DNA of 64,000 nt from Elusimicrobiota bacterium (GCA_029008615.1 JAQXJI010000004.1:1-64000); one strand, 5' to 3'. Shown: positions 22,857 through 46,673, counted from the first letter of the stretch. Numbers and translations are program-made. Notes: generated from the letters alone by a model not told the origin.

Positions 22857-23099
22857 ATGAATCAATTTTATTTTTCAAATATCAAATTCGACTTGGTTGC
22901 GGAAGAAGCAATGATTTTGCCTGGAGTAAAGACTTCTATGTTCAGGGGTGGTTTTGGTCATATTTTTAAGAGTTTTAATTGTGCAAACCGATTGTCCAAA
23001 GATTGTACTTCTTGTCTTTTGAAAGAGACGTGTATTTATACCTATGTTTTTGCTGATAACGCAAAGGTTTTTCGTTCTAAACCTAATTTTATAGCATAA
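22857..23099 (+). pseudogene. Truncated Cas6 (N-terminal fragment)
   Basis: 80 residues resembling the N-terminal part of Cas6 CRISPR endoribonucleases: LPGVKTSMFRGGFGH (the loop and helix with the RGxFGH pattern) followed by a Cys cluster CTSCLLKETCIYTYVF typical of this family. Full Cas6 proteins have ~220-270 residues; here the frame closes after the N-terminal domain and the C-terminal glycine-rich RNA-binding loop is missing. CRISPR repeats follow 18 bases later. Decay of a former type I or III locus is the simplest reading. Family call rests on motif recognition. Confidence 0.7.
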
Positions 23100-23116
23100 T
23101 AAAAGCGTCCTCTTCC

Positions 23117-23225
23117 ATTTATATCTAAGACGTGATAACTAGCGGATTGAAACTCGTCTACTTCTTTGTTGCCAATAAAGTATGTCGTATTTACATTTAA
23201 GACGCGATAACTAGCGGATTGAAAC
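23117..23225 (+). CRISPR. Minimal degenerate CRISPR array (two repeats, one spacer)
   Basis: Two 37-base repeats at 23117-23153 and 23189-23225 differ at three positions and end in GATTGAAAC, the 3' end typical of type I-B/III repeats. They enclose a 35-base spacer. No other cas genes are in the window. A weaker match (about 23306-23332, with GATGTGATA and TAGCGG) may be a third decayed repeat. Confidence 0.75.
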
Positions 23226-23335: not shown

Positions 23336-23510
23336 GGATCCTTGCTTTTTGCCCATTAGAGAAAAAGGCCCGTTGGGGGCCTTTTTATGCGCCAATAAAA
23401 GTTATATAAAACCGGTAGGGAGATAATTAGACTCTAAACACCGACGAGAAAGGGGAAAATCAGCCAACAAAAAAGCCGCTTATTTAAAAGCAGCCTTCTA
23501 AATGGTCGGG
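23336..23510. repeat. Left imperfect direct repeat bounding the island
   Basis: From GGATCC to CTAAATGGTCGGG this matches 46433-46605 in order: GGATCC, TTTTGCCCA, AGAGAAAAAGGCCC, a terminator hairpin, AAAACCG, CGACGAGA, GGGGAAAAT, a second hairpin and a shared 13-base end. At the right copy the shared end runs into a tRNA-Pro gene; here only its last bases remain. Confidence 0.7.
23362..23386 (+). terminator. Terminator inside left repeat
   Basis: AAAAAGGCCC pairs with GGGCCTTTTT around GTTGG. The right repeat has an equivalent hairpin at 46459. Confidence 0.75.
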
Positions 23511-24044
23511 CTTGGAGCCGGGACTTGCGGCTACTGTAAGACCAGTATTTGTAATTCCCTGTTTATCAGGCAAGAAACAGGGTAAAAAGTAGTGTTTTTG
23601 ATATATTGATGGATTTTTCTAATTAATGATGTTGTATTTGTATTGGCTAATTAATATAATTTAGCTCTAATTCCCTAAGCTTTCAAACAGGGATTTAACA
23701 GGGAAAAGAAGAAAAGGACCATTACTATTCCTTAGTGTATCATTTATGGCAGTAGCCAATGGCAGCAAGTCGTTTTTTAAAGCATATGAACAGGTTTATA
23801 AGGAAACTATTCGGCACTTCCGAACAGTTGAATAGAAAGAGCTTCGGATTGTATATTGATATTGAGATATAGTTATAGTTTGAGGAAGATCAGCAGTATG
23901 TTCCATTTTGGAGCTAACAGTACAGATAGGCTGACATCCTATAAGTTGTAGTGATGTTATTAAAAAATGGTTTGTAAAACATCTAGTGAAAAAATAATGT
24001 ATATTTACTGTTATTAAGCTCTGAATATTTATGAGATATTAAAT
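23511..24044. other. Non-coding stretch at the left end of the island
   Basis: No gene supported. There is an inverted repeat CCCTGTTT/AAACAGGG near 23560-23582, and a short open frame of about 55 codons ending at 23834 (last part KAYEQVYKETIRHF) that may be the tail of a lost gene. The sequence turns strongly AT-rich toward the DUF2971 gene. Confidence 0.4.
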
Positions 24045-24890
24045 ATGGGGAAATGTTTTTATAAATATCGTCAATTAGCTGCTAGTGAGAACGCTACTGA
24101 GATTCATCCTTTTACATTAAGTCTTATACAAAAAGGGGAACTATATTTTCCGTCTCCTTTTGAATTTAATGATCCTTTCGATGGAGTTATTAACTATTCT
24201 AAGACTATAACTATAACAGATATCAAAAAATTGATGGATCGTCTCTCAATTTCTGAGGAACAAAAGAGTTCTTTATTGTTGCATTATCAGAATAATTTTT
24301 TACAGCTTCCCAAAATATATGCCAGTATGCGACAAAATTTACAGAAAAAGAGTGATTTAAGAATTTTTTGTTTCTCAAAAAACCCGTTAAATATTTTAAT
24401 GTGGTCACATTATGCGAATTCTCATACAGGCGTATGTATCGGTTTTAAGACTTACCAACTTGACGAACGCGCGTTTGGAATAAGAGTGCAAGAAAATTGT
24501 GTGAATAACAAATTATTAGAAGCTAATTTTCCTAATATGCTAATACCTATTCCGGTGAATTATACTTCACATGTGGCAGGAGAATATGATTTCGGAAAAG
24601 GAAATGCTGAAGTTTTGATAGAAGCTTTTTTGAATAAAGCTATTGATTGGCAATATGAGCAAGAGTATAGAGTTGTTGCAACAAGTGATACTTTGTTAAA
24701 AAATCCCGTAATGATTGATGTTAATGAAATAGAAGAGATAATATTTGGTCTTAGAGCTTCTTCTCTATTAATAGAGCAAGTAAAAGATATTGTTTTTAAA
24801 AGCCCATATAAACGGCCTGGACCGAAGTTGTATCAATGTCAAAGAATTTCAGGAACTTATGCGTTGAAAAAGGTTTTGTTGTCTGTGTAA
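24045..24890 (+). CDS. DUF2971 domain protein
   Basis: 281 residues. DUF2971 pattern: KYRQL at the start, LYFPSPFEFNDPFDG, CFSKNPLNILMWSHYANSHTGVCIGF, and QYEQEYRVV near residue 205. The biochemical function of DUF2971 is not established, but such genes often sit in defence islands. Only 19 bases separate it from the SIR2 gene, so it probably belongs to the same operon and may act with SIR2-HerA. AT-rich like the next two genes and unlike the backbone. Confidence 0.85.
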   Translation: MGKCFYKYRQLAASENATEIHPFTLSLIQKGELYFPSPFEFNDPFDGVINYSKTITITDIKKLMDRLSISEEQKSSLLLHYQNNFLQLPKIYASMRQNLQKKSDLRIFCFSKNPLNILMWSHYANSHTGVCIGFKTYQLDERAFGIRVQENCVNNKLLEANFPNMLIPIPVNYTSHVAGEYDFGKGNAEVLIEAFLNKAIDWQYEQEYRVVATSDTLLKNPVMIDVNEIEEIIFGLRASSLLIEQVKDIVFKSPYKRPGPKLYQCQRISGTYALKKVLLSV

Positions 24891-24909
24891 AAGGAGAGTT
24901 GATTTATTT

Positions 24910-25980
24910 ATGGCACAGGTATTTGAGTTACAAAAACAAAAGAAAGAAATTGATGATTTATTGGCAAAAGGAACTTCTTCCAGTAATTTAAATGTTCTTC
25001 TGGGGGCAGGTTGTTCGCAACCTGCTATTTCAAGCCTTGGTGTAACTGAGAAAGAAATAGATGCAGCAATGAAAGATGACGAGCCTTTGAAAGTAGAGCA
25101 ATTAACTTATAAATTTTTGTCATCTATTATTGAAGTCAACTCGAAGTTAATATCAGAAACTCAAGAGGAAACAATAGAAAATACACGAAAGACGTATAGT
25201 TCTTTTCTGCGTTGCCTACGCAATTTATTGCATAAGAGGAATACGGCGCTACACTTTAACTTAATTAATATCTTTACAACAAATTACGACTTATTTATTG
25301 AAGATGCTGCCTCTCGGTTGCCAGATCTATTTCTTAATGATGGATTTTGCAGAAATACTAATTTGCAAAATAAATTTTATTTTTCTCCCACAGAATTTTT
25401 TCACTATCGGGGGCATGCTGATTACCTATATGATTATAAAACAGATTTGCCTGTTTTTAACCTTATAAAACTTCATGGCTCTTTATCTTGGAAGTTGGAA
25501 CAAGGTCTCAATAGTCGTATATTGTTTAACAATGAACTTCCAAAGACTTTGACTACTGAACAGGAGACTGACATGTTATCGTTGAGAGTATACAATCAAA
25601 CTTGTGCCGTTGTATTGCCGAGTATGCAAAAGCATCAAACTTCTGTAATAACGGATGTTTATTATGATTTGATAAGGCTTTTTTCCTATGAGTTAGAGCG
25701 GCCAAATTCTTTATTTTTGGCTATGGGATTTTCTTTTAGAGATGAGCATCTTTGTAAAGTTATCACTAGAGGGTTGTCTAATCCTTCATTGCTCTTTTTT
25801 TCATTTGCCTATAGTAAGGAAGATTTGGGCTATTTGGAGCAAAAGTTTAAAGATTTTAATAATTTTATTATTGTCCACACTTCAGAAAAGGACGAGCAAG
25901 ATCAATCTCAATATAAAAAACTTGATTTTCAAAAAATAATTAATCATTGTCTTACTAATTTCCTGTCAAAAGATAAATAA
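24910..25980 (+). CDS. SIR2-like NADase, partner of HerA
   Basis: 356 residues with a SIR2 fold: NVLLGAGCS near residue 29 (NAD-binding GAGxS), FTTNYD near 122 and KLHGS near 185. In anti-phage systems such domains destroy NAD on infection. One base separates its stop from the start of the HerA gene, which identifies a SIR2-HerA defence pair (known as Nezha or SIR2-HerA in other bacteria). AAGGAGAG precedes the start. Confidence 0.9.
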   Translation: MAQVFELQKQKKEIDDLLAKGTSSSNLNVLLGAGCSQPAISSLGVTEKEIDAAMKDDEPLKVEQLTYKFLSSIIEVNSKLISETQEETIENTRKTYSSFLRCLRNLLHKRNTALHFNLINIFTTNYDLFIEDAASRLPDLFLNDGFCRNTNLQNKFYFSPTEFFHYRGHADYLYDYKTDLPVFNLIKLHGSLSWKLEQGLNSRILFNNELPKTLTTEQETDMLSLRVYNQTCAVVLPSMQKHQTSVITDVYYDLIRLFSYELERPNSLFLAMGFSFRDEHLCKVITRGLSNPSLLFFSFAYSKEDLGYLEQKFKDFNNFIIVHTSEKDEQDQSQYKKLDFQKIINHCLTNFLSKDK

Positions 25981-25981
25981 T

Positions 25982-27871
25982 ATGAAACATTTATTGAAAA
26001 AAGAGCCTATTTTATATGTAGGGAAAGTTTGTGGTATAAGCGGCATAAAAATATGGGTGGAAGTCGCAAAAAAGAAAAATGATTCTTTTTTGCTTTTTGA
26101 TGGGGATATCGTTCGTAACATAGGCATAAATAGTATTGTCGAAATCCGAAAGGGTTTTTTGAGTATTGTTGGTATGGTGGTCGGTGAAAAAGTCGAAGAA
26201 TCAAAAGACGTTCAAAAAGCTGTTACAAAAAACCAGATTCCCTTAGACCATAATAAACGTATAGTTGAAGTGGCATTACTGGGCTATTTTGATGAAAAAG
26301 GAAAGTTTTCTGGGGGGACTAAAGAGTTTCCTTTAATTTCGTCGGATGTGTTTATCTTGGTAGGAGATAAATTACAAAATCTATATAATACCTGTTCTCA
26401 AGATTGGTCTATTTCTGTTGCGAGATTGGAAAGTTCAGAAAAGATTTTTAGATTACCTATTGATGGTTTGTTTAATAGTCATATTGCTGTGTTTGGTAAT
26501 ACGGGGAGCGGAAAGTCCAATACTTTGGCAGCTTTGTATCATGCTTTGTTCAAAACATTGGAAAAGAAAGACGTAAATATATTTAAAAATAACACTCATT
26601 TTGCAATATTTGATTTCAATGGAGAGTATGGGGATTCTCATTGTATTACTGAAAAAAAGACTGTGTATAAGTTATCAACGCATGATGATAATGGTAATAA
26701 GATCCCAATTAAGCCAACTGATTTTTTAGATTTAGAATTTTTATCAGTTTTAAGTGACGCCACTGAAAAAACACAAAAACCATTTCTAAGGCGTGCATTA
26801 ACTTTATTGGATAAGATTAAAAAGGGGAATCCTTCTGTAGAGTCTGATCAATATTTCATAAATATTTTCCAGAAATATTTAAAAGAGACTTTATCGCTGT
26901 CCGATAAAGAAAAAGCAGATATATTATTAGAGTATTTTATTAATATTTATTCTATTTTTGAATATGACGCTTCTTCCGATCGTACCGTGCTCAAATGGCA
27001 AGGGAAAACCCAAACTTTTTATATTGAAAGATCTGGGAAATGTATATATTTAAATAGTAATCCACATGAAATTAAGAATTTGAAAATATATACAAAAATA
27101 CAAGAATTTTCATTCTCTAATCTTTTGTTAATGAACCAATTGTTTGTTGTTCTATATTTAAAACTTATATTGGATATTATAGATACTAGGGTAAATAATG
27201 AATTCGTTGGATATGTAATACATAGACTACAACGACATCAAAAATCAATTGAACGTGTTTTTATTTTTAATGATGATGGGTCCGTTTGGGGAACAGGTAA
27301 CTGTGTAGTATTTAATTTTAATCAAGTTAATTTATCGATGAAAAAAGTGCTGCCTCTCTTGCTAGCAAAGAAGTTGTATGAAGAACAAAAGAAGGAGGGC
27401 AAAAATAAAATATTAAATTTGATTATTGACGAAGCACATAATATCCTTTCAAAGACATCTATGCGCGAAACGGATTCTTGGAAAGATTATCGCTTGGAAA
27501 CTTTTGAAGAGATTATTAAAGAGGGAAGAAAGTTTGGCGTATTCTTGACGATAGCAAGTCAACGACCAAATGATATTTCAGAGACTATTATTTCTCAAGC
27601 TCATAATTATTTTATTCACAGATTGGTAAATGAAAAAGATTTATTGATGATGGCAAATACAATATCTTATTTAGATAAAATATCGGTAGATTCAATTCTA
27701 ACACTACCAGTAGGGACTTGTATATTTGGTGGGACTGCTACGCAAATGCCTGTAAAAATACATTTTGATGAATTACCAACCGAGCAACAACCGCAGAGTC
27801 ATACTCGTAAATATGCTGATTTGTTTTCAAAACAGAATGATGTATGCAACCGAAAAACCTTAAAAAATTAA
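25982..27871 (+). CDS. HerA-like ATPase of SIR2-HerA defence system
   Basis: 629 residues. An N-terminal beta-rich HAS-barrel region leads to a FtsK/HerA-type ATPase: Walker A FGNTGSGKSN near residue 172, Walker B NLIIDEAHN near 480, then TIASQRPNDISETI and a C-terminal PVGTCIFGG. HerA hexamers form large complexes with SIR2 partners that sense phage. The last 28 bases overlap the WYL gene, suggesting coupled expression. Confidence 0.9.
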   Translation: MKHLLKKEPILYVGKVCGISGIKIWVEVAKKKNDSFLLFDGDIVRNIGINSIVEIRKGFLSIVGMVVGEKVEESKDVQKAVTKNQIPLDHNKRIVEVALLGYFDEKGKFSGGTKEFPLISSDVFILVGDKLQNLYNTCSQDWSISVARLESSEKIFRLPIDGLFNSHIAVFGNTGSGKSNTLAALYHALFKTLEKKDVNIFKNNTHFAIFDFNGEYGDSHCITEKKTVYKLSTHDDNGNKIPIKPTDFLDLEFLSVLSDATEKTQKPFLRRALTLLDKIKKGNPSVESDQYFINIFQKYLKETLSLSDKEKADILLEYFINIYSIFEYDASSDRTVLKWQGKTQTFYIERSGKCIYLNSNPHEIKNLKIYTKIQEFSFSNLLLMNQLFVVLYLKLILDIIDTRVNNEFVGYVIHRLQRHQKSIERVFIFNDDGSVWGTGNCVVFNFNQVNLSMKKVLPLLLAKKLYEEQKKEGKNKILNLIIDEAHNILSKTSMRETDSWKDYRLETFEEIIKEGRKFGVFLTIASQRPNDISETIISQAHNYFIHRLVNEKDLLMMANTISYLDKISVDSILTLPVGTCIFGGTATQMPVKIHFDELPTEQQPQSHTRKYADLFSKQNDVCNRKTLKN

Positions 27872-28767
27872 ACCGTTTGTTGTGTCTGCTTAATATCTTG
27901 GACTCGGGGGAAATCCAAGTGCAGCGCGAAGCGCGAGAACTGGACGTTACCGAGCGTACTATCCAGCGGGATATCAATGATATTGACGCGGGCGGATTTC
28001 CTATTTATAAAGCGGCCCCGGGGATATATAAGTTTATAGAAGGCTTTTCTCTTAAAAAAATGAATTTGACAGAGGCCGAAGCGTCCCTTTTACTCGTTAT
28101 GCAGGATGTGATTTCCCCACTAGGCAAACCTTTCCAAGATACGTTGGCGTCGCTCCGCCAAAAAGTATTAAATGCGCCGGAAGAATCCCCGTTTTATATC
28201 AAAATGCCAACGGGCAATAAATACGAGGAAACCAAAATTACCCGCGTGTTGGAAAAAGGTATTCGTACGCATACGGAAGTGTTAATGTCGTTGGCGGCCG
28301 ATCCCTCCCGCAAATTAACCTATGATTTAAAACCCCTAAAAATAATGAATTATGACGGGTTTTGGTACTTATTGGGTATCAATGCTTATAAACAGGTGCG
28401 AAAGTTCCGTTTAGACCGCATTTTGGACGCTGTTAATACGGATAAATCATTCAAACCCACTAAAAATATCCAAAAAATACTGCAAGAAAGCCAAAATATC
28501 TGGTTTGGGGAAAAACGGGACAAAAAAGTAACTTTTTGGGTTCCGGCAGAGTTCGCCGCGTATTTTGAGAAAAAAGCTTATTTCCCGTTGCAAAAAATAC
28601 TCAAAAAACAGAAAAACGGGGATATTTTGGTGGAAACGTGCGTATCCAACTACCGCGAGATTATCCCCACTATCCTCAGTTGGCTGGAACATATTACGCT
28701 TGTGGAACCGGCAGATTTTAAGGCGCTTATCAAAGATATTCTGAGCAAGGCTATCCAAAAGTTATAA
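27844..28767 (+). CDS. WYL domain transcription regulator
   Basis: 307 residues. An N-terminal winged helix-turn-helix (REARELDVTERTIQRDIND) precedes a WYL domain near residues 155-205 (NYDGFWYLLGINAYKQ, KFRLDRI). WYL regulators such as BrxR and CapW sense nucleotides or nucleic acid and repress defence genes. Base composition is less AT-rich than in the HerA gene, so it may have a separate origin. It overlaps HerA by 28 bases. Confidence 0.88.
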   Translation: MQPKNLKKLNRLLCLLNILDSGEIQVQREARELDVTERTIQRDINDIDAGGFPIYKAAPGIYKFIEGFSLKKMNLTEAEASLLLVMQDVISPLGKPFQDTLASLRQKVLNAPEESPFYIKMPTGNKYEETKITRVLEKGIRTHTEVLMSLAADPSRKLTYDLKPLKIMNYDGFWYLLGINAYKQVRKFRLDRILDAVNTDKSFKPTKNIQKILQESQNIWFGEKRDKKVTFWVPAEFAAYFEKKAYFPLQKILKKQKNGDILVETCVSNYREIIPTILSWLEHITLVEPADFKALIKDILSKAIQKL

Positions 28768-29001: not shown

Positions 29002-29052
29002 ATAATCTCCGCATAAAGTCCGCAAAATATGCGGATTTTATGCGGAGATTAT
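29002..29052 (+). promoter_or_regulatory. Phased operator/hairpin upstream of fic
   Basis: A perfect 16-bp inverted repeat (29002-29017 with 29037-29052) encloses a second pair TCCGCA/TGCGGA. The four half-sites TCCGCA, TCCGCA, TGCGGA, TGCGGA begin at 29008, 29019, 29030 and 29041, exactly 11 bases apart. A TTATAAT lies immediately downstream. This is what a cooperative repressor operator looks like. Confidence 0.75.
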
Positions 29053-29061
29053 GTTATAATA

Positions 29062-29081
29062 AAAATCACAGGAGTGATTTT
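29062..29081 (+). promoter_or_regulatory. Hairpin holding the fic ribosome site
   Basis: AAAATCAC and GTGATTTT pair perfectly around AGGA, so the AGGAG ribosome site falls in the loop and first stem pair, directly before the ATG at 29082. It could limit translation or be a second operator. Confidence 0.6.
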
Positions 29082-30179
29082 ATGTATATTTATCAAAATA
29101 CACATTGGCCCCATTTTATATGGGATAAAACGAAAGTTTTGGATATTTTAGCTAAAGTGAAATGGTCGCAGGGGCTTCTTTTGGGCAAAATGCAACATTT
29201 GGGATTTGCCTTAAAAGATAATGCCCTATTACAATCTCTTACGGAAGAAATTTTGAAATCAAACGAAATTGAGGGGAACCGTTTAGATATCCGCCAAGTT
29301 CGTTCTTCTATTGCTCGGAAGTTGGGAATTCCCTCTGAAGAAACTACGGCATCTTCCCGAGATGTTGATGGTACGGTGGAGATGATGCTGGATGCCATTG
29401 GTCATTATGATGATCCTGTTACAAAAAGCCGTTTGTGTGCTTGGCATAAACATATGTTCCCGACAGGGAAAAGCGGGTGGTATGCTATTCAAACGGGATG
29501 TTACCGGGATGATAAACTTGGTCCTATGCAAGTGGTATCTGGGCCAATGGGGGCCGAACGCGTCCACTATCAAGCACCGGCGGCAGATGTGTTAGATGCA
29601 GAAATGAATAAACTGTTTAAGTTTATCAACGAAGATCCGCTAGATAATCTTATTAAGGCGGGTATAGCCCATTTATGGTTCGTTATTTTACATCCTTTTG
29701 ATGACGGAAATGGCCGGATTGCCCGGGCGTTAACGGAATTGTTACTCGCGCGGAGTGAGGGCTCTTCCAAGCGTTTTTATTCTATGTCATCCGCTATTGA
29801 AAAAGATCGTAAAGGCTATTATCAACAGTTGAGAATTACGCGTGCAGAAGATTTGGATATAACCAATTGGCTGGAATGGTTCTTAAATACACTCCATACG
29901 GCGATAAATAATTCGGAGAGTCTATTGAAAACAACTTTGGAAAAAGCCAATTTTTGGAATAAGCATGTGGGAGAAAGTTTTAATGAACGTCAGACCAAAA
30001 TGCTCAATAGACTATTTGACGGATTTAAAGGGCATTTAACAAGTACAAAATGGGCACTTTTGTGCAAATGCTCGCAAGATACGGCTAGCCGTGATATTGC
30101 CGATTTACAAAAACGCAATATTCTGATGCAGATAGGAGCGGGACGAAACACGCATTATATGCTGTGCCAAGATAAATAA
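29082..30179 (+). CDS. Fic family protein with N-terminal DUF4172-like domain
   Basis: 365 residues from the ATG at 29082; the longer frame from 29040 starts inside the operator. The Fic motif HPFDDGNGR near residue 203 is intact, so AMPylation of a target protein is likely. An inhibitory SNEIEGN near residue 59 matches the S/TxxxE(G/N) pattern of class II Fic proteins, which self-inhibit without a separate antitoxin. The C-terminal ~70 residues look like a winged helix. The target is unknown. Confidence 0.92.
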   Translation: MYIYQNTHWPHFIWDKTKVLDILAKVKWSQGLLLGKMQHLGFALKDNALLQSLTEEILKSNEIEGNRLDIRQVRSSIARKLGIPSEETTASSRDVDGTVEMMLDAIGHYDDPVTKSRLCAWHKHMFPTGKSGWYAIQTGCYRDDKLGPMQVVSGPMGAERVHYQAPAADVLDAEMNKLFKFINEDPLDNLIKAGIAHLWFVILHPFDDGNGRIARALTELLLARSEGSSKRFYSMSSAIEKDRKGYYQQLRITRAEDLDITNWLEWFLNTLHTAINNSESLLKTTLEKANFWNKHVGESFNERQTKMLNRLFDGFKGHLTSTKWALLCKCSQDTASRDIADLQKRNILMQIGAGRNTHYMLCQDK

Positions 30180-30216
30180 AGTGAAGCTTTGGGCCGCACT
30201 TTATGATCCTAGAAAG

Positions 30217-30241
30217 AATGCGGAGTTTTTTACTCCGCATT
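30217..30241. terminator. Inverted repeat between fic and the GIY-YIG gene
   Basis: AATGCGGAGT and ACTCCGCATT are perfect arms around TTTTT, in the gap between two convergent genes. The stem reuses the TGCGGA/TCCGCA unit of the fic operator. Confidence 0.65.
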
Positions 30242-30246
30242 CCAAT

Positions 30247-31107
30247 TTAGTTGTCATTGTAGCCTTTGGCTCTTGTGTTCAGGCAATTTTTCCAATAGTT
30301 CTCTCTTATTTTGATTTTTTCAGGATCATAATGCAGTCCAAAATATTCAAGCAGTGTGAATGTAAAATATTTTTTGAAGTAAATGTCCTTTTTTTCGTCA
30401 TATAGTTTTTTTAATTCTATATTTCCGCCATGTTTAGAGTCTATATAGTTTCCCCAACGTTGTGCGACTCCTTCCTCTCCTGTAGCCGAGCCGATATATA
30501 ATTTCCCTGTCTTTTTATCAGTTAAACAATATATTCCAGTAATTTTTCTGAGTGCCTCATAATAAGTTGGCATGATTTTTCTATTTAAAATATCTTCTAA
30601 TTTTTGATAGGACAAATGCACTTTATCATATCCTTCAAATTTTTCTCCTGTATAGACCCTAGGAAGGATCTCTTTAACAGAACATTTATCTAAAAATGTG
30701 TTTAATTTGAATGTATATAATGAAAATTTATTTCCTTTATTACATTCAATGATTAGTCGTCCGAACAGAGGTGAAAATTTATCGAGGATTCTAACTTTGG
30801 CCCATGAGTTTTTTGGAACTTCTATAATTTCTGCTGCAGATATAAATAACCATTCATTAGACGATAATCGGGCAAAGCTAAACACCCAATTCCCTTGACG
30901 AAAATTAGGTCTACTATGGCCATACCAACCCCAAAAAGAACAATCCCAGTCAGTACCATATCCCATTGTTTTTTCTGTTTCGCTTCGGCGTAGCCACCTA
31001 TCCAGAAAAGATTCGCCATCTCTTCCAGCTTTCATATTAAGTTCGATTTTGCTGTTTTTAATTTCTGTATCGGTTAAATTAAAAATTTTATTTAATGCAA
31101 TGGTCAT
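30247..31107 (-). CDS. GIY-YIG nuclease-domain protein
   Basis: 286 residues from the ATG at 31107, which has GAGGG placed before it; a start at 31122 adds five residues. The C-terminal third has the GIY-YIG signature GIYCLTDKKTGKLYIGSA followed by RWGNY and an HGGN element. The N-terminal ~180 residues are a separate domain I do not recognise, including GWYGHSRPNF. This combination occurs in phage- and defence-linked genes; the target is unknown. AT-rich. Confidence 0.85.
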   Translation of the reverse strand: MTIALNKIFNLTDTEIKNSKIELNMKAGRDGESFLDRWLRRSETEKTMGYGTDWDCSFWGWYGHSRPNFRQGNWVFSFARLSSNEWLFISAAEIIEVPKNSWAKVRILDKFSPLFGRLIIECNKGNKFSLYTFKLNTFLDKCSVKEILPRVYTGEKFEGYDKVHLSYQKLEDILNRKIMPTYYEALRKITGIYCLTDKKTGKLYIGSATGEEGVAQRWGNYIDSKHGGNIELKKLYDEKKDIYFKKYFTFTLLEYFGLHYDPEKIKIRENYWKNCLNTRAKGYNDN

Positions 31108-31155
31108 AATGAAAACCCTCATTTTAATATTATTTAGTATACTGCTCTACATAAA

Positions 31156-31611
31156 TTATTTGAATATTTCCTTAAAGTCCTCTCTTTTTACTTCAAATTT
31201 TTTGTATTTTTCAACAGTAGACCCGCTGTCATTAAGCAAAATAACCCAGGTTTTATTCATGTTTTTGCCGGATTTCTGCCGGGAACAGGTGGCTAGGTAC
31301 TCTTCCGAAGAGAATAGCCACATAATATCTTGGGTTTACGCATAGAACAGATAGTAATAATTGTGCCGCAATTCGGGATTTTTTACTTCAAAACGGCCTA
31401 TGCCTTTTTTCCCAACTTCACCTTTGCGAGCCTTGATTTGAATTTCAAAAAATTGCTCGCCGGGAGTTTTTATCACGCAGTCTGTTCCATCGTCATCTAC
31501 CCAAGGCTCAAAGCATTTAAATCCCTGGGACATTAGGCGGCTTTCCATTAAATATTCGATTCGTTTTGCATATTGGGCGCTGCGACCATCAAAAAATTCT
31601 TCAAGTACCAT
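31156..31611 (-). pseudogene. PD-(D/E)xK nuclease-like gene with in-frame stop
   Basis: A good ribosome site (AGGAG) and ATG at 31611 open a 91-residue frame ending LFYA at a TAA (31336-31338). The same frame continues past it for another 59 sense codons (QDIMWLFSSEEYL..., ending DFKEIFK) to a TAA at 31156. Together they make a sensible ~150-residue protein with GTDCVIK and EIQIKARK, which fit the D and ExK-like (QxK) parts of a PD-(D/E)xK nuclease. So the gene is broken by one nonsense codon, or that base is an error. Confidence 0.75.
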
Positions 31612-32310: not shown

Positions 32311-32441
32311 GCCAAAAACAAGCCTAAAAGCAAATTGTACCGACAACAACTCTTATATTATAACCTTTTTTCTCCCAAACAGCAGGTATTTAAGACAGAC
32401 GTCCTCGTTTAAATTTGCTATATAGGGGAAAAGGAGGTTTT

Positions 32442-33281
32442 ATGGTTCAATTAGGCTTTTTAGTTTCCAAAGTAGTTCCGAATTATCGCCCGTCTAAGCG
32501 GCTTAAAATGCAGAATGTAATGCGGGTAAAATATAAAATAGTTTTTTCTTGGGAAGAATTAAAAAGATTTGCAAACAGGCCATATTCCCGAGAAGCTTTC
32601 CGGTTTGTAAAGATGTTATCTCAAAATAGCGTTCTTATAAAAGCCATCGAAGAATTCCGCCGCATATTTTGTTTACCACCTGAGGGGGTGTATTTTGTTA
32701 GGAAGCACAGAACTATTCGTAATAAACAGTGCGGGGCCCACAAACCCATATGGTGTTATGAAAACTTGTTACCGAAAGAAGTTCGTCCACAAGCTCAAAA
32801 ATATATTGCAGATTTTATCGAACACCATAATATCCATGCTCCGCTTAAATATCAAATGGATAGTTTATTTTATTGCGGTTTTGTGGATAGCCGGATAAAT
32901 GATATTTGGGTGCCGTTGGGAATTCATATCCCAGCGCAGCAAGATATTAAACAGCGGGCGTGGGGGTATCGCATACCTGTATCTATTTCCTTAAATTCAG
33001 CTAATTTGACGAAAAAAGAAGTAAAACAATTCATTGATGAAAATTGGGACGATATACAGGGGTATTTTAAGAAAAATCCTGCTGTAATGGATATTTCTTT
33101 TTCGGATCATGAAGAAATTATTGTTTCCTATAAAAATATGGGGTTCACTTGTTCTGAAACTTTGGAGGAACTATCTCCGGCCTCTTCAGAGGATGCTAGC
33201 GGGACTGTTGAACAAATTACCGAACAACATTATAGAATTCGTAAGAAAGTTAATAAAATTATCTCTCCTAAAACACCATAA
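32442..33281 (+). CDS. Unknown protein preceding the packaging genes
   Basis: 280 residues from the ATG at 32442 after AAGGAGG; the frame upstream is non-coding. I recognise no family. Features: basic N terminus, a Trp/Cys/His-containing centre (CGAHKPIWCYEN, FYCGFVDSRINDIWVP) and a Lys-rich end. Codon style fits the phage-like genes that follow. Possibly a phage or satellite DNA-binding protein; unproven. Confidence 0.65.
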   Translation: MVQLGFLVSKVVPNYRPSKRLKMQNVMRVKYKIVFSWEELKRFANRPYSREAFRFVKMLSQNSVLIKAIEEFRRIFCLPPEGVYFVRKHRTIRNKQCGAHKPIWCYENLLPKEVRPQAQKYIADFIEHHNIHAPLKYQMDSLFYCGFVDSRINDIWVPLGIHIPAQQDIKQRAWGYRIPVSISLNSANLTKKEVKQFIDENWDDIQGYFKKNPAVMDISFSDHEEIIVSYKNMGFTCSETLEELSPASSEDASGTVEQITEQHYRIRKKVNKIISPKTP

Positions 33282-33336
33282 CAAAAAAATAAAATTTCCT
33301 GTTATGGGGAATTTTCTGATAGTTTTTTAAAATAAT

Positions 33337-33368
33337 CCTTGCCCGATGTAACTAGATTATGGGCAAGG
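33337..33368 (+). promoter_or_regulatory. Hairpin overlapping the ribosome site of the ParB-methylase gene
   Basis: CCTTGCCC (33337-33344) and GGGCAAGG (33361-33368) are perfect arms with a 16-base loop. The 3' arm includes AAGG of the AAGGAG ribosome site for the GTG at 33380, so folding would block initiation. Confidence 0.5.
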
Positions 33369-33379
33369 AGTATTTTTTT

Positions 33380-34630
33380 GTGAAAACAGTAAAAATTACA
33401 GAGTTGAAGCCATACCCTAAAAACGCGCGGACACACAGTCCTAAGCAAATCTGTCAAATTGCCAAAAGTATTAAAACCTTTGGTTTTACCAACCCGGTCC
33501 TCGTGGATAAAGATAACTGCATTTTAGCAGGGCATGGACGGGTGGAAGCCGCCAAGTTGGCGGGGCTTACTGAAGTGCCTGTGGTTTGTATCACACATTT
33601 GACCCCGGCCCAAAAGAAGGCTTATATCCTGGCAGATAACCGCTTGGCGGAGCTTTCCGGTTGGGATAAAGACATCCTCAAAGTGGAGTTAGAAGAAATT
33701 CAAAGCATTGAGTGCGATTTCGACCTCACATCAACGGGTTTTGCGGCTCCGGAAATAGATGTTCTTCTCGCGCCGGAAGCCCCGGCTACCGAAGAAAAAG
33801 CCGATTTCCTGGGCAACACGGTTCCCTCCCGTGTAAAAGTTGGCGACCTTTGGCAGTTGGGGAAACATAAACTGTTATGTGCGGATTGCACCCAAGAGTC
33901 TGCTTTTAAGCGGCTTTTGGGCGCGGAAAAGGCCGACCTTATCGTAACGGACCCACCGTATAACGTAAAAATTTCCGGCCATGTACGGAGCGGGGATAAT
34001 TACCGCGAGTTTGCTATGGCTTCTGGCGAAATGTCCCAAAATGAATTTTCCCAGTTTTTAAAGGGCGTTTTTAGCTTGCTGTCCGAATATAGCCAACAAG
34101 GCAGTTTGCACTATGCTTTTATGGATTGGCGCCATATAGGGGAGATTCTAACGGCCGGAATGTCGGTTTATACGAGCCTCAAAAATGTTTGTGTATGGAA
34201 TAAATTAAGCGGCGGAATGGGCAGTTTGTACCGCAGCCAGCACGAACTGGTTTTTGTGTTCAAAAACGGCGATGCCCCGCATACCAATAACATTGAGTTG
34301 GGAGTCCACGGCCGCTACCGGACAAATGTTTGGGACTACCCCGGTATTTTTATCAAAAACAAGGTGAATAAAGCCAACATCCGCCTTCACCCAACGGTGA
34401 AACCTGTGGGTTTGCTGGCGGACATATTATTAGATGCCAGTCCCCGCAAAGGGCTCGTGTTGGACCCTTTTGGCGGTAGTGGCAGTACTCTCTTGGCTGC
34501 CGAACGAACGGGGCGGCGTGCGCGGATTATAGAGATAGACCCACACTATTGCGATGTAATCATCTATCGTTGGGAACAGCAAACGGCTAAAAAAGCCGTG
34601 CGCTTGGAGGAGAAAAATTATGAAAATTAA
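33380..34630 (+). CDS. ParB-domain DNA methyltransferase
   Basis: 416 residues from the GTG at 33380, ten bases after AAGGAG; the ATG at 33359 lacks a ribosome site. N-terminal ParB/sulfiredoxin-like domain (residues ~1-100, NPVLVDKDNCILAGHGRVEAA), then a beta-class N6/N4 methylase: DPPY near residue 192, and DPFGGSGST near 363. Such two-domain proteins are common next to phage terminase genes and modify phage DNA. Followed by an 11-base overlap. Confidence 0.92.
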   Translation: MKTVKITELKPYPKNARTHSPKQICQIAKSIKTFGFTNPVLVDKDNCILAGHGRVEAAKLAGLTEVPVVCITHLTPAQKKAYILADNRLAELSGWDKDILKVELEEIQSIECDFDLTSTGFAAPEIDVLLAPEAPATEEKADFLGNTVPSRVKVGDLWQLGKHKLLCADCTQESAFKRLLGAEKADLIVTDPPYNVKISGHVRSGDNYREFAMASGEMSQNEFSQFLKGVFSLLSEYSQQGSLHYAFMDWRHIGEILTAGMSVYTSLKNVCVWNKLSGGMGSLYRSQHELVFVFKNGDAPHTNNIELGVHGRYRTNVWDYPGIFIKNKVNKANIRLHPTVKPVGLLADILLDASPRKGLVLDPFGGSGSTLLAAERTGRRARIIEIDPHYCDVIIYRWEQQTAKKAVRLEEKNYEN

Positions 34631-35012
34631 ACGCAAAGAACAAAAGACAACCGAAGAATACAAGAAACCCGATTATGTGGGGTATAAACACCCGCCGGTT
34701 AAGTACCGTTGGCAGAAGGGGCAGACGGGCAATCCCCACGGAAGGCCTAAAAAAGATGAGTCCTTTCGCGCAATTGCCGAGCGCGAGTTAAAAAAGGAAG
34801 TCTCCCTAAAGGAGAACGGCCACATCCGGCGTGTGTCCTTGAAGGTGGCTATCGTTAAACGGTGTTTAGCGGATGCGGCGCAAGGTAAAATCCGCAATTT
34901 GGAGTTTATTCTTAAAGTGCTAAACCAAAGCTCCCCTGTCCCGGTGGCTGAAGAATTAACCGCACAGGAACAAGAAGTATGGAATAGTTATTTTAAGGAG
35001 GGAGAGAAATGA
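34620..35012 (+). CDS. DUF5681 protein, possible small terminase role
   Basis: 130 residues with the DUF5681 signature YRWQKGQTGNPHGRPKK near residue 25. Genes of this family lie directly before large terminase genes, so a small-subunit or DNA-binding role is likely. It overlaps both neighbours (11 and 4 bases). Confidence 0.85.
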   Translation: MKIKRKEQKTTEEYKKPDYVGYKHPPVKYRWQKGQTGNPHGRPKKDESFRAIAERELKKEVSLKENGHIRRVSLKVAIVKRCLADAAQGKIRNLEFILKVLNQSSPVPVAEELTAQEQEVWNSYFKEGEK

Positions 35013-36424
35013 ATCCTGAACAAAAGCGCAAATTCTTGGCGAAAGCCGTATGGGAAAATTTTTTAATTTTTCTGCATCGGACTTTTTTAGAAATAGACAA
35101 TAGCCAAAGTTTTACCCCAAACTGGCATTTGGAAGTAATTGCCGATAAATTATTGTCGGTGCAGCGGGGGGATATCCGGCGGTTGGTGATTGCACAACCG
35201 CCCCGGAGCCTAAAATCAGTTTGTGCCAGTGTGGCGTTCCCTGCGTGGATTTTAGGGCATAATCCAAAGGCGCGTATTATTTGTATTAGTTATAGTCAGG
35301 ATTTGGCGGACAAATTCGGCCGCCAGACCCGTCAAGTAATGGAAAGCCCTTGGTATAAGGCGGCGTCCCCTGCGGCCCGCATAAACACGGCCAAACGGGC
35401 CGACAGCGAGTTCGAAACGACTGCGCGGGGATTTAGACTGGCCACTTCTATCGGTGGGCGTTTAACCGGAATGGGAGGCCAGTATTTAATTATTGATGAT
35501 CCCATAAAACCGGGGGATGTGCTATCCCGTGTACAGCGGCAAAATGTAAATGACTGGTTTCACAATACCCTGTATACCCGTTTAGATAATAAAAACACAG
35601 GGTCTATTTTGCTCGTGATGCAGCGGGTGCACGAAGAAGACTTGGTCGCCCATGTGCAAAAATGGGACCAGTGGGATGTTTTAAGTTTGCCCGCCATTGC
35701 CTCGCAGGATGAAAGTTATCACCTTCATAGCGGTAAGGTATTGACGCGTAAACAGGGCGAGGCTTTAAATCCCCGTTTGGAAAGTCTGGAAAGGCTGAAA
35801 GAGATACAAAATACGCTGGGAAACTATAATTTCCAAGCCCAATACCAGCAGAGCCCTATCCCCGAAAAAGGAAATGTCATTAATTTTGACTGGTTTCAAC
35901 GGTATACGGAGCTTCCTACAAATGAGAGCGGTCGGCTTCGCATTATTCAAAGCTGGGATACGGCTATGACAGAGCACGACGGGAGTGATTATTCTGTTTG
36001 TATTACTGCCCAAGTGATTAACAAGCAGTATTACATACGGGATGTGTTTCGCAAAAAGTTGCTATTTCCTGATTTGGTTAAAGAGGTCAAGCGCCTAAAA
36101 TTACACTATAACGCCCATGAGGTGTTTATAGAAGATAAGGCTTCCGGGGTAGAGCTAATCCAGTTGTTGCACCGGCAGGGTGTTCCGGGGATTCAAGCTA
36201 TTAAACCGGAGGGAAGCAAAGAGGACCGGATTGCCGCCCAATCTACGTTGATTGAAAACGGCAGGGTATTTATTCCGCAGTCGGCCCCGTGGATTGAGGA
36301 TTTTAAACGGGAAGTAAATGCTTTCCCCCGAGGGGCGCATGACGACCAGCTGGATGCCTTGGCGCAGCTGTTAAAGCGTGAGGAAGAAGTGGGGGATAGG
36401 TTGGGGTGGTTGCAGTATGTATAG
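35009..36424 (+). CDS. terL: Phage terminase large subunit
   Basis: 471 residues. ATPase half: PPRSLKS near residue 65 (a variant Walker A), YLIIDDPI as Walker B. Nuclease half: SWDTAMTEHDGSDYSV, VFIEDKASG and HDDQLDALAQLL, the RNase H-like acidic residues. Packages DNA into procapsids. No portal, protease or capsid gene follows, so this is not a complete prophage. Confidence 0.93.
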   Translation: MNPEQKRKFLAKAVWENFLIFLHRTFLEIDNSQSFTPNWHLEVIADKLLSVQRGDIRRLVIAQPPRSLKSVCASVAFPAWILGHNPKARIICISYSQDLADKFGRQTRQVMESPWYKAASPAARINTAKRADSEFETTARGFRLATSIGGRLTGMGGQYLIIDDPIKPGDVLSRVQRQNVNDWFHNTLYTRLDNKNTGSILLVMQRVHEEDLVAHVQKWDQWDVLSLPAIASQDESYHLHSGKVLTRKQGEALNPRLESLERLKEIQNTLGNYNFQAQYQQSPIPEKGNVINFDWFQRYTELPTNESGRLRIIQSWDTAMTEHDGSDYSVCITAQVINKQYYIRDVFRKKLLFPDLVKEVKRLKLHYNAHEVFIEDKASGVELIQLLHRQGVPGIQAIKPEGSKEDRIAAQSTLIENGRVFIPQSAPWIEDFKREVNAFPRGAHDDQLDALAQLLKREEEVGDRLGWLQYV

Positions 36425-36750: not shown

Positions 36751-36758
36751 AAAATTGC

Positions 36759-36792
36759 TTGACTTATTACCCCTTAGTAAGCGTATATATTT
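36759..36792 (+). promoter_or_regulatory. Shared island promoter element, copy 2 (vsr)
   Basis: TTGACT, TATTACCCCTTAGTAAG, then CGTATATATT. Precedes vsr by about 23 bases. Confidence 0.65.
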
Positions 36793-36814
36793 AGTAGAGG
36801 TATTTGAGGTGTCT

Positions 36815-37261
36815 ATGGACTGTTTAACAAGAGAACAACGCCGAAAAAACATGCAGGCTATCCGGTCATCCGGTACAAAAATTGAAATATCTTTAGCAAA
36901 AGCCTTATGGCATAAGGGATACCGTTACAGGAAAAATTGTAAAAATATTCTGGGAAAGCCGGATATTGTCTTGCGTAAATATAAAATTGCAGTTTTTTGT
37001 GACAGTGAATTTTGGCATGGCAAAGATTTTCCGTCTATTGTTAAGCGTATTGGAACAAATAAAGAATTTTGGAAAAGTAAAATCCAGCGTAATATGAAAA
37101 GAGACCTCGAAGTAACCCGCCAATTGGAATCCGCAGGGTGGACTGTTTTGCGGTTTTGGGAGACAGGGATCAAGAAGGAATTGGCAGAATGCATTTTTGA
37201 AATTGAAAAAAATATAGAAGAGGCCAAACTGCGGTTTGAGACTAAAAATATCCAAATATGA
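36815..37261 (+). CDS. vsr: Very short patch repair endonuclease
   Basis: 148 residues from the ATG at 36815; the reading from 36755 starts inside the promoter element. Vsr nicks T:G mismatches produced by deamination of 5-methylcytosine. Signature MQAIRSSGTKIE, then GKPDIVLRKYKIAVFCDSEFWHG with catalytic Asp and His. Lies next to a C5 methyltransferase as expected. Confidence 0.93.
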   Translation: MDCLTREQRRKNMQAIRSSGTKIEISLAKALWHKGYRYRKNCKNILGKPDIVLRKYKIAVFCDSEFWHGKDFPSIVKRIGTNKEFWKSKIQRNMKRDLEVTRQLESAGWTVLRFWETGIKKELAECIFEIEKNIEEAKLRFETKNIQI

Positions 37262-37296
37262 CTTGTAAAAGGTATAATTTACATTAAGGATTTATT

Positions 37297-38430
37297 ATGA
37301 AGGCACCACAGATTTTTTCATTTTTTTCAGGTATTGGGTTTCTGGATTTAGGATTTGAAAAAGCTGGTTATATATCTGCTTTTGTTAACGAATTTGACCC
37401 CGATTTTTTATCTGCCTACCAATATGCCCGTAAGCAGATGAAAGTGAAACAACCAGTATATGGTTATTTACAAGGTTCGGCGGAAGCTGTTTTGGCTGGA
37501 GCTTACCAGAATGATTTTAAGAAAATTTTGGTCCAGGCAAAGCAAAGTGGGCATCCTATTGGTTTTATCGGGGGGCCGCCTTGTCCTGACTTTTCTGTCG
37601 GAGGGAAAAACAGGGGAAAAACAGGTTCTAATGGCCGTTTGACCCAGGTTTATGCTGATATTATCTGTAAATACCAGCCGGATTTCTTTGTGTTTGAAAA
37701 TGTGAAAGGCTTGTGGCGTACAAAAGTACACAGAGCTTTTTATGAAGATATTAAAAAGCAATTTTCTAATAGTGGTTATATTTTGTTTGACCGGTTAATT
37801 AATGCTATGGAGTTTGGGGCCCCCCAGGACCGGGAACGTATTATTTTAATAGGCTTTTTTAAGAAATCGCTATATTTTAAATCTTTACCTAAAGAAATGC
37901 CTTGGGAAACGCACATGGCATTCTCCTTAGAAAAAATTAAAAAACTGAATTGGCCAGAGGCTGAAACTCCTTCGCCTGTCCGTATCCGTCCAGCCAAAAT
38001 TATTCCGCAGCTAACAGTCCAATATTGGTTTGATAAAAATAAAGTTACACAACATCCAAACCAACAACATTGCTTTCGTCCCCGTTCCGCTTTGGTTAAG
38101 TTCCAAACTATTCCGGAAGGGGATGTCGCTAAAAAATCTTTTAAAAGATTACACCGTTGGCGTTATTCTCCTACTGCCGCTTATGGTAACAATGAAGTTC
38201 ATATTCATCCATATGAGCCCCGCCGGATTTCTGCGGCGGAAGCTTTGGCTATACAGTCTTTACCTAAAGAGTTTGTTTTGCCTCCATGGATGTCGTTGTC
38301 TGATATGTTTAAAACAATAGGAAACGGAGTGCCTTATAAAGCTGCATATGGTATTGCCAAAACCATATTAAAATTTATAAGTTATAAGAATGAGGATAAC
38401 TCCGGAAAATATTGTAAAAATAATAAATAA
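37297..38430 (+). CDS. DNA (cytosine-5) methyltransferase
   Basis: 377 residues. Motif I FSFFSGIGFLDLGFEKAGY, catalytic Cys motif GGPPCPDFSVGG near residue 94 (PCP rather than the common PCQ), ENVKGL near 133, QDRERIILIGF, and motif X near the end (IGNGVPYKAAYGIAK). Methylates cytosine to protect against the nuclease next door. AAGGA lies before the ATG. Its end overlaps the next gene by 41 bases. Confidence 0.93.
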   Translation: MKAPQIFSFFSGIGFLDLGFEKAGYISAFVNEFDPDFLSAYQYARKQMKVKQPVYGYLQGSAEAVLAGAYQNDFKKILVQAKQSGHPIGFIGGPPCPDFSVGGKNRGKTGSNGRLTQVYADIICKYQPDFFVFENVKGLWRTKVHRAFYEDIKKQFSNSGYILFDRLINAMEFGAPQDRERIILIGFFKKSLYFKSLPKEMPWETHMAFSLEKIKKLNWPEAETPSPVRIRPAKIIPQLTVQYWFDKNKVTQHPNQQHCFRPRSALVKFQTIPEGDVAKKSFKRLHRWRYSPTAAYGNNEVHIHPYEPRRISAAEALAIQSLPKEFVLPPWMSLSDMFKTIGNGVPYKAAYGIAKTILKFISYKNEDNSGKYCKNNK

Positions 38431-39469
38431 TTTACCCAAATACCAATGGTTTGATTACATTGGTGAGCATTCTAAGACCAAAATACAGGTCGTGGCTGCC
38501 CGTTTACCGGAAGGCCCTATTGTTATTAAGAGATATGATGTTTCTAAAGGCCAAACAGCCAATGATGCTAAAGAAGCAAATATTTCGGGTAATATGTTGT
38601 GGCGGGTAGCAAATGCTATCCGTCCGGGAGTTCCTGTAAATATTGACCGTGTTCTCGGCGCCAGTTATAATACACGTTCTGCCTTGGAAACACTATTAGC
38701 CCATACGCCAGAATTCTACTGGTGCTTGCCGGGCCGTATTGAGTTAGTTGACTCTACTTCCCAGATTAAACGGGGCCATAAACATTTGGTTTGGATGCCG
38801 GATATGCCTCACCGTAATGGTATAGCAGAAAAGTATGATACAGATGTTACCATATCAGAAATTCCTACTTCAACAGCTATTTACGAAGCTGTTTCTCTTC
38901 CGGATGCTCCGTTAGATAATTCTGTCGATATTGAAGTCCGCCGCCGTCATTTACAGATACAAATTGCTCTGGTAATTATTGGCCGTCATTTTGGTTTTAG
39001 AACTTGGGTTGCCCGTAACGACCAGGGACTGACATATGGCGATAAAAAGGTTGGCGAATTAGAAGGGGTAATTAACCGTTTGGAAGACGAAAAATTATTA
39101 CAGTCCTATAGTGATGCCGTCCACGCAGCTTTGCTGGTTGATTGCATTTGGTTTCAAGGAGACCGTTTTATGCCTGCGGTTATTGAAGTGGAACATTCTA
39201 CTGGGGTAACCAGTGGTTTGAGCAGGATGAAAAACGTCCAGGACCGTATTCCGCCTTTTCCTACCCGGTGGATTATTGTTGCTCCGGATGAAGACCGGGA
39301 TAAAGTATACCGGGAAGCAAATAAACCCCAGTTTAAGTCTTTAGATGCCCGTTATATGCCGTATTCTGCTGTGGATGAGTTGTATTCTCTTCTCCAGAGG
39401 AGGAATGTTACTCCGGAGATGTTACATGATAAATTTTTAGATTGTTATTTGGAAAAGATTATACATTGA
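38390..39469 (+). CDS. Probable type II restriction endonuclease
   Basis: 359 residues, sequence family not recognised with certainty. Called from position directly after the C5 methylase and from an acidic core AVIEVEHSTGVTSGLSRM near residue 262, which resembles nuclease active-site strands (E, ExE). The long overlap with the methylase gene suggests tight co-expression of modification and restriction. Confidence 0.65.
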   Translation: MRITPENIVKIINNLPKYQWFDYIGEHSKTKIQVVAARLPEGPIVIKRYDVSKGQTANDAKEANISGNMLWRVANAIRPGVPVNIDRVLGASYNTRSALETLLAHTPEFYWCLPGRIELVDSTSQIKRGHKHLVWMPDMPHRNGIAEKYDTDVTISEIPTSTAIYEAVSLPDAPLDNSVDIEVRRRHLQIQIALVIIGRHFGFRTWVARNDQGLTYGDKKVGELEGVINRLEDEKLLQSYSDAVHAALLVDCIWFQGDRFMPAVIEVEHSTGVTSGLSRMKNVQDRIPPFPTRWIIVAPDEDRDKVYREANKPQFKSLDARYMPYSAVDELYSLLQRRNVTPEMLHDKFLDCYLEKIIH

Positions 39470-39478
39470 GGATTCGGA

Positions 39479-40579
39479 ATGGAAATAGATTTAGATTTAC
39501 AGACAAGTTTAGCCCAAGAAGAAGAAGCTCTTGAACAAGAAGAACCATCGAATGTTGTCCCTCCTGACAATATTTTTACATATAGTGAGTCTCGTTCGTG
39601 TGCAGATATTACCCGTATGGTGTCAGAAGGTGATTTAAAAAAAGATCCTTTTTTTCAACGGCATGATGTGTGGAGTAATGCTGATAAAACTCGGTTTATT
39701 GATTCTTTATTGAAAAGAATGCCGATTCCCAGTATGTGTTTTAGTGTTGATGCGCATGAAAAATATAATGTTATTGATGGCCGTCAACGTACTTCGACGA
39801 TTGTTGAATTTGTAAACTCTTTGCAAGATATAAATTCTGCACAAAAGTATGTTTTTTCGGATTTGCAAGATGTAGATCCCCGCATCTCTGGAAAGAATCT
39901 TTTAGCAGTTAAAGAAAATACACCAGAGGTCCTTACTATAATCAAGAATGCTACGATTCCTATCAATATGTTAAAGTGTGATTATAATAAAGAAAATAAT
40001 ATGCAGTATATATTTAAAATATTTCATCGGCTTAACTCTGGTGGCGTCAAACTTAATAATCAGGAAATCCGAAACTGCATTTATTCAGGAGAATTTAACC
40101 AACTGTTAAATAATTTAAATAATCGCGATTTATGGAAAAATTGGATTCCCAGAATAGCGAATAATGAACGGTTAAAAGGGGCTGAAAGAATTTTGACTTT
40201 TTTTGCCTTTTTTTATTTTTTTGAAGAATACAGTGGTTCAATGGCTTCTTTTTTAAATAGAAAAATGGAGATCTTTTCCTCAAAAGATATGAATTGGATC
40301 TCTGCACAAAAATCTTTCTTTGATAGACTCCTTAGGAGTGTGTCCCAGATTGAAATGCTTGATTATCAAAAAAATGTATATGTAGATGCTGTCTTATATG
40401 GTGTTTCTAAAAATTTGGATTTTTGTTTAACTCTTTCCAAAGAAAATATGAATGATAAATTTAGGAGTCTATTACAACAGTCTTCTTTTTCTAAAGAAAA
40501 TTTGAAAGAAGGTATGACGAAAACTGAGGGACTGAAACGACGTTTAGCAGATGCAAAAATAGTTTTTTCCCAACAATAA
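39479..40579 (+). CDS. DUF262 domain protein
   Basis: 366 residues. DUF262 (ParB-like, GmrSD family) motif YNVIDGRQRTSTIVEF near residue 97, after DPFFQRHDVWSNADKTRFIDSLL. GmrSD-type proteins cleave or sense modified DNA; here there is no HNH domain, so it may act through its HEPN neighbour one base downstream. Much more AT-rich than the methylase. Confidence 0.85.
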   Translation: MEIDLDLQTSLAQEEEALEQEEPSNVVPPDNIFTYSESRSCADITRMVSEGDLKKDPFFQRHDVWSNADKTRFIDSLLKRMPIPSMCFSVDAHEKYNVIDGRQRTSTIVEFVNSLQDINSAQKYVFSDLQDVDPRISGKNLLAVKENTPEVLTIIKNATIPINMLKCDYNKENNMQYIFKIFHRLNSGGVKLNNQEIRNCIYSGEFNQLLNNLNNRDLWKNWIPRIANNERLKGAERILTFFAFFYFFEEYSGSMASFLNRKMEIFSSKDMNWISAQKSFFDRLLRSVSQIEMLDYQKNVYVDAVLYGVSKNLDFCLTLSKENMNDKFRSLLQQSSFSKENLKEGMTKTEGLKRRLADAKIVFSQQ

Positions 40580-40580
40580 T

Positions 40581-42761: not shown

Positions 42762-42763
42762 TC

Positions 42764-42796
42764 TTGACTTATCTCCCGATAGTAAGCGTTACTGTG
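42764..42796 (+). promoter_or_regulatory. Shared island promoter element, copy 4 (recombinase)
   Basis: TTGACT, TATCTCCCGATAGTAAG, CGTTACTG; 22 bases before the recombinase start. Confidence 0.65.
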
Positions 42797-42817
42797 TATA
42801 GGAGAATTGTACCAAAT

Positions 42818-46590: not shown

Positions 46591-46597
46591 TGCTAAA

Positions 46598-46673
46598 TGG
46601 TCGGGGCGACTGGATTTGAACCAGCGACCTCACGGTCCCGAACCGTGCGCGCTACCAACTGCGCTACGCCCCG
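46598..46673 (-). tRNA. tRNA-Pro (CGG)
   Basis: 76 bases including an encoded CCA. Acceptor CGGGGCG/CGCCCCG, D arm GCGC/GCGC, anticodon stem CACGG/CCGTG with loop TTCGGGA (anticodon CGG), T arm GCTGG/CCAGT with TTCAAAT. Possible integration target of the island. Confidence 0.95.

Follow-up and report, generated by a model that had tools for sequence, protein, structure and literature searches.

A SIR2-HerA pair and a DUF2971 gene in a probable cargo slot of a tRNA-Pro island, bounded by a WYL regulator gene

The four-gene segment at positions 24045 to 28767 of the window (the whole 64,000-nucleotide stretch of Elusimicrobiota DNA analyzed here) is likely the cargo slot of an island at a tRNA-Pro gene, carrying a SIR2-HerA pair, a DUF2971 gene as separate cargo, and a WYL-domain gene as the slot's own regulator. 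Such a slot would extend from the inverted repeats at the left end of the island to the start codon of the island-owned WYL gene. The SIR2-HerA pair itself is ordinary, and the exchangeable slot between the signature end and the resident WYL gene is the more interesting feature.

Gene content of the segment

The four genes and their families were found, by ORF calls and by Pfam and PADLOC matches, where a sequence-only reading of the window had placed them (Table 1), and the tight spacing that it described was likewise recovered. DUF2971 and SIR2 are separated by 19 bp, with AAAGGAGAG ahead of the SIR2 start, SIR2 and HerA are 1 bp apart, and HerA shares a 28-bp overlap with WYL. The first three genes share the AT-rich composition attributed to them, with GC3 values of 24, 28, and 25% for DUF2971, SIR2, and HerA, respectively, versus 48% for WYL. 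Promoter and terminator scans performed no better than shuffle level and were not relied upon; transcription is discussed below as predicted.

TABLE 1 Features of the segment and of its carrier island (positions counted from the first letter of the window)
Feature	Position	Strand	Evidence or content
Left 13-bp direct repeat CTAAATGGTCGGG (8 nt of tRNA 3' end, CCCGACCA, plus flank), island left end	23498-23510		Exact match to 46593-46605
Island-end signature: inverted repeats ATTCCCTGTTTATCAGGCAAGAAACAGGG and ATTCCCTA...CAGGGA...CAGGGAA	23554-23705		Aligned in 8 loci, including G040
DUF2971 gene (PDC-S31/phrog_1762 family)	24045-24890	+	281 aa; PF11185, 44.3 bits (cutoff, 22); PADLOC PDC-S31, 147 bits, full length
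SIR2-like NADase subunit (predicted)	24910-25980	+	356 aa; SIR2_2, 28.6 (cutoff, 24.5); PADLOC SIR2, 246 bits
HerA-like ATPase subunit	25982-27871	+	629 aa; DUF87, 69.9 (cutoff, 23.2); PADLOC HerA, 602 bits over 9-619
WYL-domain regulator (HTH_11 + WYL + WCX), fixed right edge of cargo slot	27844-28767	+	307 aa; domain matches
Island backbone	32415-36424	+	288-aa gene; ParB/DNA methylase, 33359-34630; 130-aa gene, 34620-35012; terminase, 35009-36424
Serine recombinase of island	42674-44422	+	PF00239, 139 bits; PF07508; phrog_95 integrase, 322 bits
Right direct repeat (46593-46605), overlapping 3' end of intact tRNA-Pro(CGG) (46598-46673)	46593-46673	-	Exact repeat match

Judged from its sequence, the SIR2-HerA pair is clearly a standard member of the anti-phage pair known as Sir2-HerA (also called Nezha), and the identity proposed for it earlier was thus borne out. 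The two genes are adjacent and match the respective families, the SIR2 motifs (GAGCS at residue 32, TTNYD at 123, and LHGS at 188) and the Walker motifs of HerA (GNTGSGKS at 172 and IIDEAH at 481) are intact, and relatives with solved structures exist for both SIR2 (8yhx, 8j4u, and 8w9l) and HerA (8yho, 8wiv, and 8j4u). However, the pair differs from the known system in having DUF2971 ahead of SIR2, and its scores are far under the NCBIfam equivalog cutoffs (82 versus 500 bits for SIR2_antiphage and 138 versus 800 bits for HerA_antiphage), which places it in another subfamily. In the characterized complex, the NAD+ pocket of SIR2 becomes open once HerA is bound, and nuclease and ATPase activities are present (PMC12198126). 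By homology to the solved complexes, the SIR2 and HerA proteins of the window would also assemble into one complex in which HerA binding would open the NAD+ pocket, and upon infection this complex would destroy NAD+, and possibly phage DNA, so that phage growth stops; the biochemistry and the protection are thus both predicted. SIR2-HerA pairs of other phyla (loci L025, L031, L040, L079, L089, and others) often lie within or beside type I restriction-modification (RM) genes.

The carrier island and its end signature

By its sequence features, the region from ~23.5 to ~46.6 kb is probably a mobile island of ~23 kb that integrated at a tRNA-Pro gene, at its 3' end. As in other tRNA-integrated islands, a direct repeat is found both at the tRNA 3' end and at the far island end, and a recombinase gene lies inside. 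The 13-bp repeat by itself is marginal (E = 0.08). The island-end block, in which a tRNA 3' remnant is followed by the inverted repeats, is conserved across all 8 aligned loci, and the gene order of the backbone is the same in two other genomes (G065 and G016).

The core pattern of this end signature recurs at ~70 listed sites in 42 of the 90 genomes of the family, and the reversed pattern was found at none. A tRNA-end sequence lies no more than 75 nt upstream of the signature at 37 of the 44 sites examined, versus 1.1% expected by chance. Genes found directly after signature copies include those for Cas9-Cas1-Cas2, IetAS, TIR PDC-S60, an AbiLi-like ATPase, HerA-like proteins, type I RM, and SoFic. 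Some copies precede nondefense genes (DUF4424 and others), and therefore the slot is not for defense alone. Several signature sites follow one another in tandem, and no integrase is recognizable in some of the cassettes between them. At four loci (L295, L296, L315, and L319), Cas9-Cas1-Cas2 genes start ~300 bp past the tRNA-end signature, which suggests that the CRISPR-Cas9 loci of the family move as cassettes.

This organization resembles the defense hotspots on tRNA-integrated phage-like islands and satellites in its tRNA 3'-end site, its recombinase and terminase genes, and its exchangeable defense cargo. It differs from them in that a specific inverted-repeat end delimits the slot on one side and the start codon of WYL delimits it on the other, an arrangement seen here in one bacterial family.

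The island carries further genes of note. Behind WYL (29040-31611) are more defense genes, namely, those for a SoFic-like Fic protein (166 bits) and a UzuA-like GIY-YIG protein (154 bits) and a weak Mrr-like fragment. The stretch at 36755-41048 encodes a Vsr endonuclease (36755-37261), a probable cytosine methyltransferase as judged from sequence (37297-38430), a GmrSD_N protein (39479-40579), and a 359-aa protein with no Pfam match. Beside the serine recombinase gene (44450-46426) is a gene for a 658-aa protein with repeated zinc-ribbon-like CxxC units and no PADLOC match. Just outside the left island end (22857-23225), an N-terminal Cas6 fragment (PADLOC, 61 bits) is followed by two CRISPR-like repeats ending in GATAACTAGCGGATTGAAAC; together these are a decayed CRISPR remnant.

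Exchange of SIR2-HerA and Gabija

The slot is seen with other cargo in a genome of another genus (G137), in which the gene order is lipoprotein, DUF2971, GajA-GajB, WYL, a relative of ORF32415, and ParB/methylase. The Gabija genes of this genome are well matched (PADLOC, 516 and 394 bits for GajA and GajB, respectively), and its WYL gene, which a frameshift or stop interrupts in the assembly, is 89% identical to that of the window. DNA homology between the two islands covers window positions 23466-24902 (71% identity) and then 27855-28766 (87%), skipping SIR2-HerA. As the homology ends at the end of DUF2971 and restarts at the WYL start codon, SIR2-HerA and Gabija have been exchanged within one frame that holds the former in one species and the latter in the other. 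Gabija thus fills the slot position corresponding to that of SIR2-HerA in the window, although its proteins are unrelated to SIR2-HerA and it is seen here only as exchanged cargo.

The WYL regulator gene

WYL relatives with at least 74% identity occur in 8 genomes. The gene that lies 9 to 20 bp upstream of WYL encodes GajB in G137, Fic/PDC-S04 in G073 and G016, a 1061-aa protein in G057, and a 613-aa AAA protein in G265, and in two genomes (G053 and G065) only opposite-strand genes lie upstream. In all pairs compared, DNA homology begins at the WYL start codon (27840-27856) with 72 to 87% identity, despite the different cargo upstream. Because the slot of these relatives holds other defense systems, the WYL gene is a part of the slot rather than of SIR2-HerA. 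The 1061-aa protein of G057 (L155, 6050-9235), encoded directly ahead of WYL, has no Pfam or PADLOC match and is, from its slot position, a candidate new defense gene product.

That the overlap with HerA signals self-regulated expression, as the sequence-only reading suggested, did not hold up. The last residues of the window HerA have no counterpart in its relatives and correspond to the WYL 5' end read in another frame. The two genes overlap because the last codons of HerA enter the fixed WYL 5' end at the cassette junction; hence, the overlap is a junction effect and gives no indication of self-regulation. More distant WYL genes (43 to 44% identity), one of them elsewhere in the genome of the window, overlap PD-(D/E)XK genes by 23 bp, and one at this distance follows RtcB.

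WYL repressors control diverse defense loci (PMC9122601 and PMC9122588), and the window protein shares with BrxR and CapW the HTH + WYL + WCX layout and the link to many defense systems (PMC9122601); no solved WYL regulator was matched by its sequence. It would be in keeping with these precedents, and with the position of WYL on the same strand as HerA and overlapping it, if WYL were a dedicated autoregulator of SIR2-HerA. We nevertheless consider this very improbable, as the gene is missing from the second DUF2971-SIR2-HerA locus (G040, described below), adjoins five or more unrelated kinds of cargo in relatives, and differs in GC3 from the genes ahead of it (48% versus 24 to 28%). Further, BrxR and CapW are described upstream (5') of the genes that they control, whereas WYL lies 3' of the cargo both here and in those relatives that carry cargo and, in the window, is a fixed island gene. 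By analogy with BrxR and CapW, WYL as the slot's own regulator most likely adjusts, from an unusual downstream position, the expression of whatever cargo occupies the slot. The inverted repeats of the island end were also considered as a WYL operator; this idea was dropped, since G040 has the repeats but no WYL at this locus and they also lie next to WYL-less cassettes.

The DUF2971 gene

The segment had been proposed to represent a three-component version of the SIR2-HerA system, to be checked by whether DUF2971 recurs within one gene of such pairs. Scanning viral and genome contigs with the single HerA sequence gave no relatives; an alignment query did recover them. At E ≤ 1e-20, HerA relatives were found in 6 of the 295 genomes of the phylum, including that of the window. 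One of these, G040, belongs to another species of the window's genus. Its DUF2971, SIR2, and HerA genes (52, 63, and 72% identity, respectively) are ordered as in the window, with a 22-bp gap followed by a 4-bp overlap, and no WYL gene lies near these three genes. The kept order and tight spacing are beyond chance, one contiguous DNA match runs from DUF2971 through HerA between the two loci, and the suggestion that the first three genes moved together is borne out by this second copy. Behind the trio of G040 (L008, 11040-15727) are genes for an ADP-ribosylglycohydrolase, an McrC-like protein, and an AAA_5 ATPase (probably McrB) on the other strand.

The other four genomes of the phylum with a HerA relative have SIR2-HerA without DUF2971. 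In other genomes, SIR2 lies directly upstream of HerA at 74 of 80 HerA-subfamily loci (36 to 50% identity), and DUF2971 was found near none of the 80 with two profiles, the first applied at E ≤ 10 and the second at E ≤ 1. When 82 upstream neighbors of HerA-subfamily loci were scanned with Pfam, the 25 most frequent families were mainly those of type I RM and HTH genes, and the closest plasmid relatives examined consist of the two SIR2-HerA genes only. Conversely, the flanks of 80 DUF2971 loci on viral contigs contained neither SIR2 nor HerA, and those DUF2971 genes that were examined on plasmids are solo. Beyond the window, then, DUF2971 was found next to SIR2-HerA in one sister copy (G040) and in no independent lineage. 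As the two trio copies are mutually closest, the association is effectively a single event. The link between DUF2971 and SIR2-HerA is thus real in one lineage and not general, and the proposal of a general three-component system is not sustained by these searches, in which the neighbors of DUF2971 were surveyed on viral contigs, on plasmids, and in the genomes of the family.

A close DUF2971 is present in only 4 of the 90 family genomes. The window protein is 62% identical to the Gabija-linked copy (G137) versus 52% to the SIR2-HerA-linked copy of G040, and another copy (G178) is solo, downstream of a tRNA-Asn gene. The family, common in phages and plasmids, has the invariant motifs FND, W-x-H-Y, and Y-E-x-E-x-R. 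To our knowledge, no tested function has been assigned to the PADLOC candidate defense family PDC-S31, which the window protein matches over its full length (Table 1) and from which it differs in adjoining SIR2-HerA; none of the papers searched describes DUF2971 as a defense gene. AlphaFold models of the window protein (pLDDT of 84) and of a phage-plasmid relative (pLDDT of 94) gave no significant fold match, and a profile sequence search of the PDB yielded no solved relative. The top four hits of each fold search of the PDB included proteins with an ADP-ribosyltransferase fold (TreX, TreTu, and CteC; Tpt1 and DarT), all at E ~0.5 or worse. These hits and the Y-E-x-E-x-R motif suggest that DUF2971 possibly has an ADP-ribosyltransferase-like fold, which we offer as a lead only.

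Two readings would bind DUF2971 more closely to its neighbors. It may be a genuine third component in the SIR2-HerA lineage seen here, for instance as a sensor, a safety factor, or an accessory effector, with its translation tied to that of SIR2. The same order and 19- to 22-bp spacing persist in two species whose proteins are 28 to 48% apart, DUF2971 has stayed intact despite divergence to 52% identity, the AT-rich composition matches across the trio, the DNA match is contiguous from DUF2971 through HerA, and the gap to Gabija is larger (>110 bp). However, we regard this as unlikely, given that both cases are sister copies of effectively one event, that none of the 80 other HerA-subfamily loci carries DUF2971, that the closest DUF2971 accompanies Gabija (62% versus 52%), and that the gene stands alone in G178, as it does in the plasmid and phage-plasmid records inspected. 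The Gabija-linked copy invites another reading, namely, that DUF2971 is a general accessory to several two-gene ATPase-effector systems, chosen by the island family, as it precedes SIR2-HerA in two genomes and GajA-GajB in a third and is always first past the island end. This seems quite improbable to us, as there are three cases only, the gap before GajA is 116 to 155 bp, and most signature sites with other defense systems have no DUF2971. DUF2971 is probably separate slot cargo, a defense-associated or phage-competition gene in its own right and no required subunit of SIR2-HerA.

Implications

The host is a gut-type bacterium that carries SIR2-HerA and an extra DUF2971 gene in a mobile-island slot. 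A wider interpretation, which we put forward tentatively and with considerable doubt, is that of family-wide cassette exchange at tRNA genes, in which one end signature and one WYL regulator residing there would frame whichever unrelated defense (SIR2-HerA, Gabija, Fic, IetAS, Cas9, TIR, or RM) is inserted. DUF2971 would then be a leading module, present in some cases only, that cooperates with two or more of these systems.

The analysis parts a defense system from its carrier, in that WYL marks the slot rather than SIR2-HerA and DUF2971 is probably separate cargo. Further, a short DNA signature flags defense cargo in a poorly studied phylum, which allows new defense genes, such as that for the 1061-aa protein of G057, to be cataloged and put to the test. 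Should a single regulator indeed serve swappable defenses, this would be a simple answer to how newly gained and potentially toxic systems are controlled.
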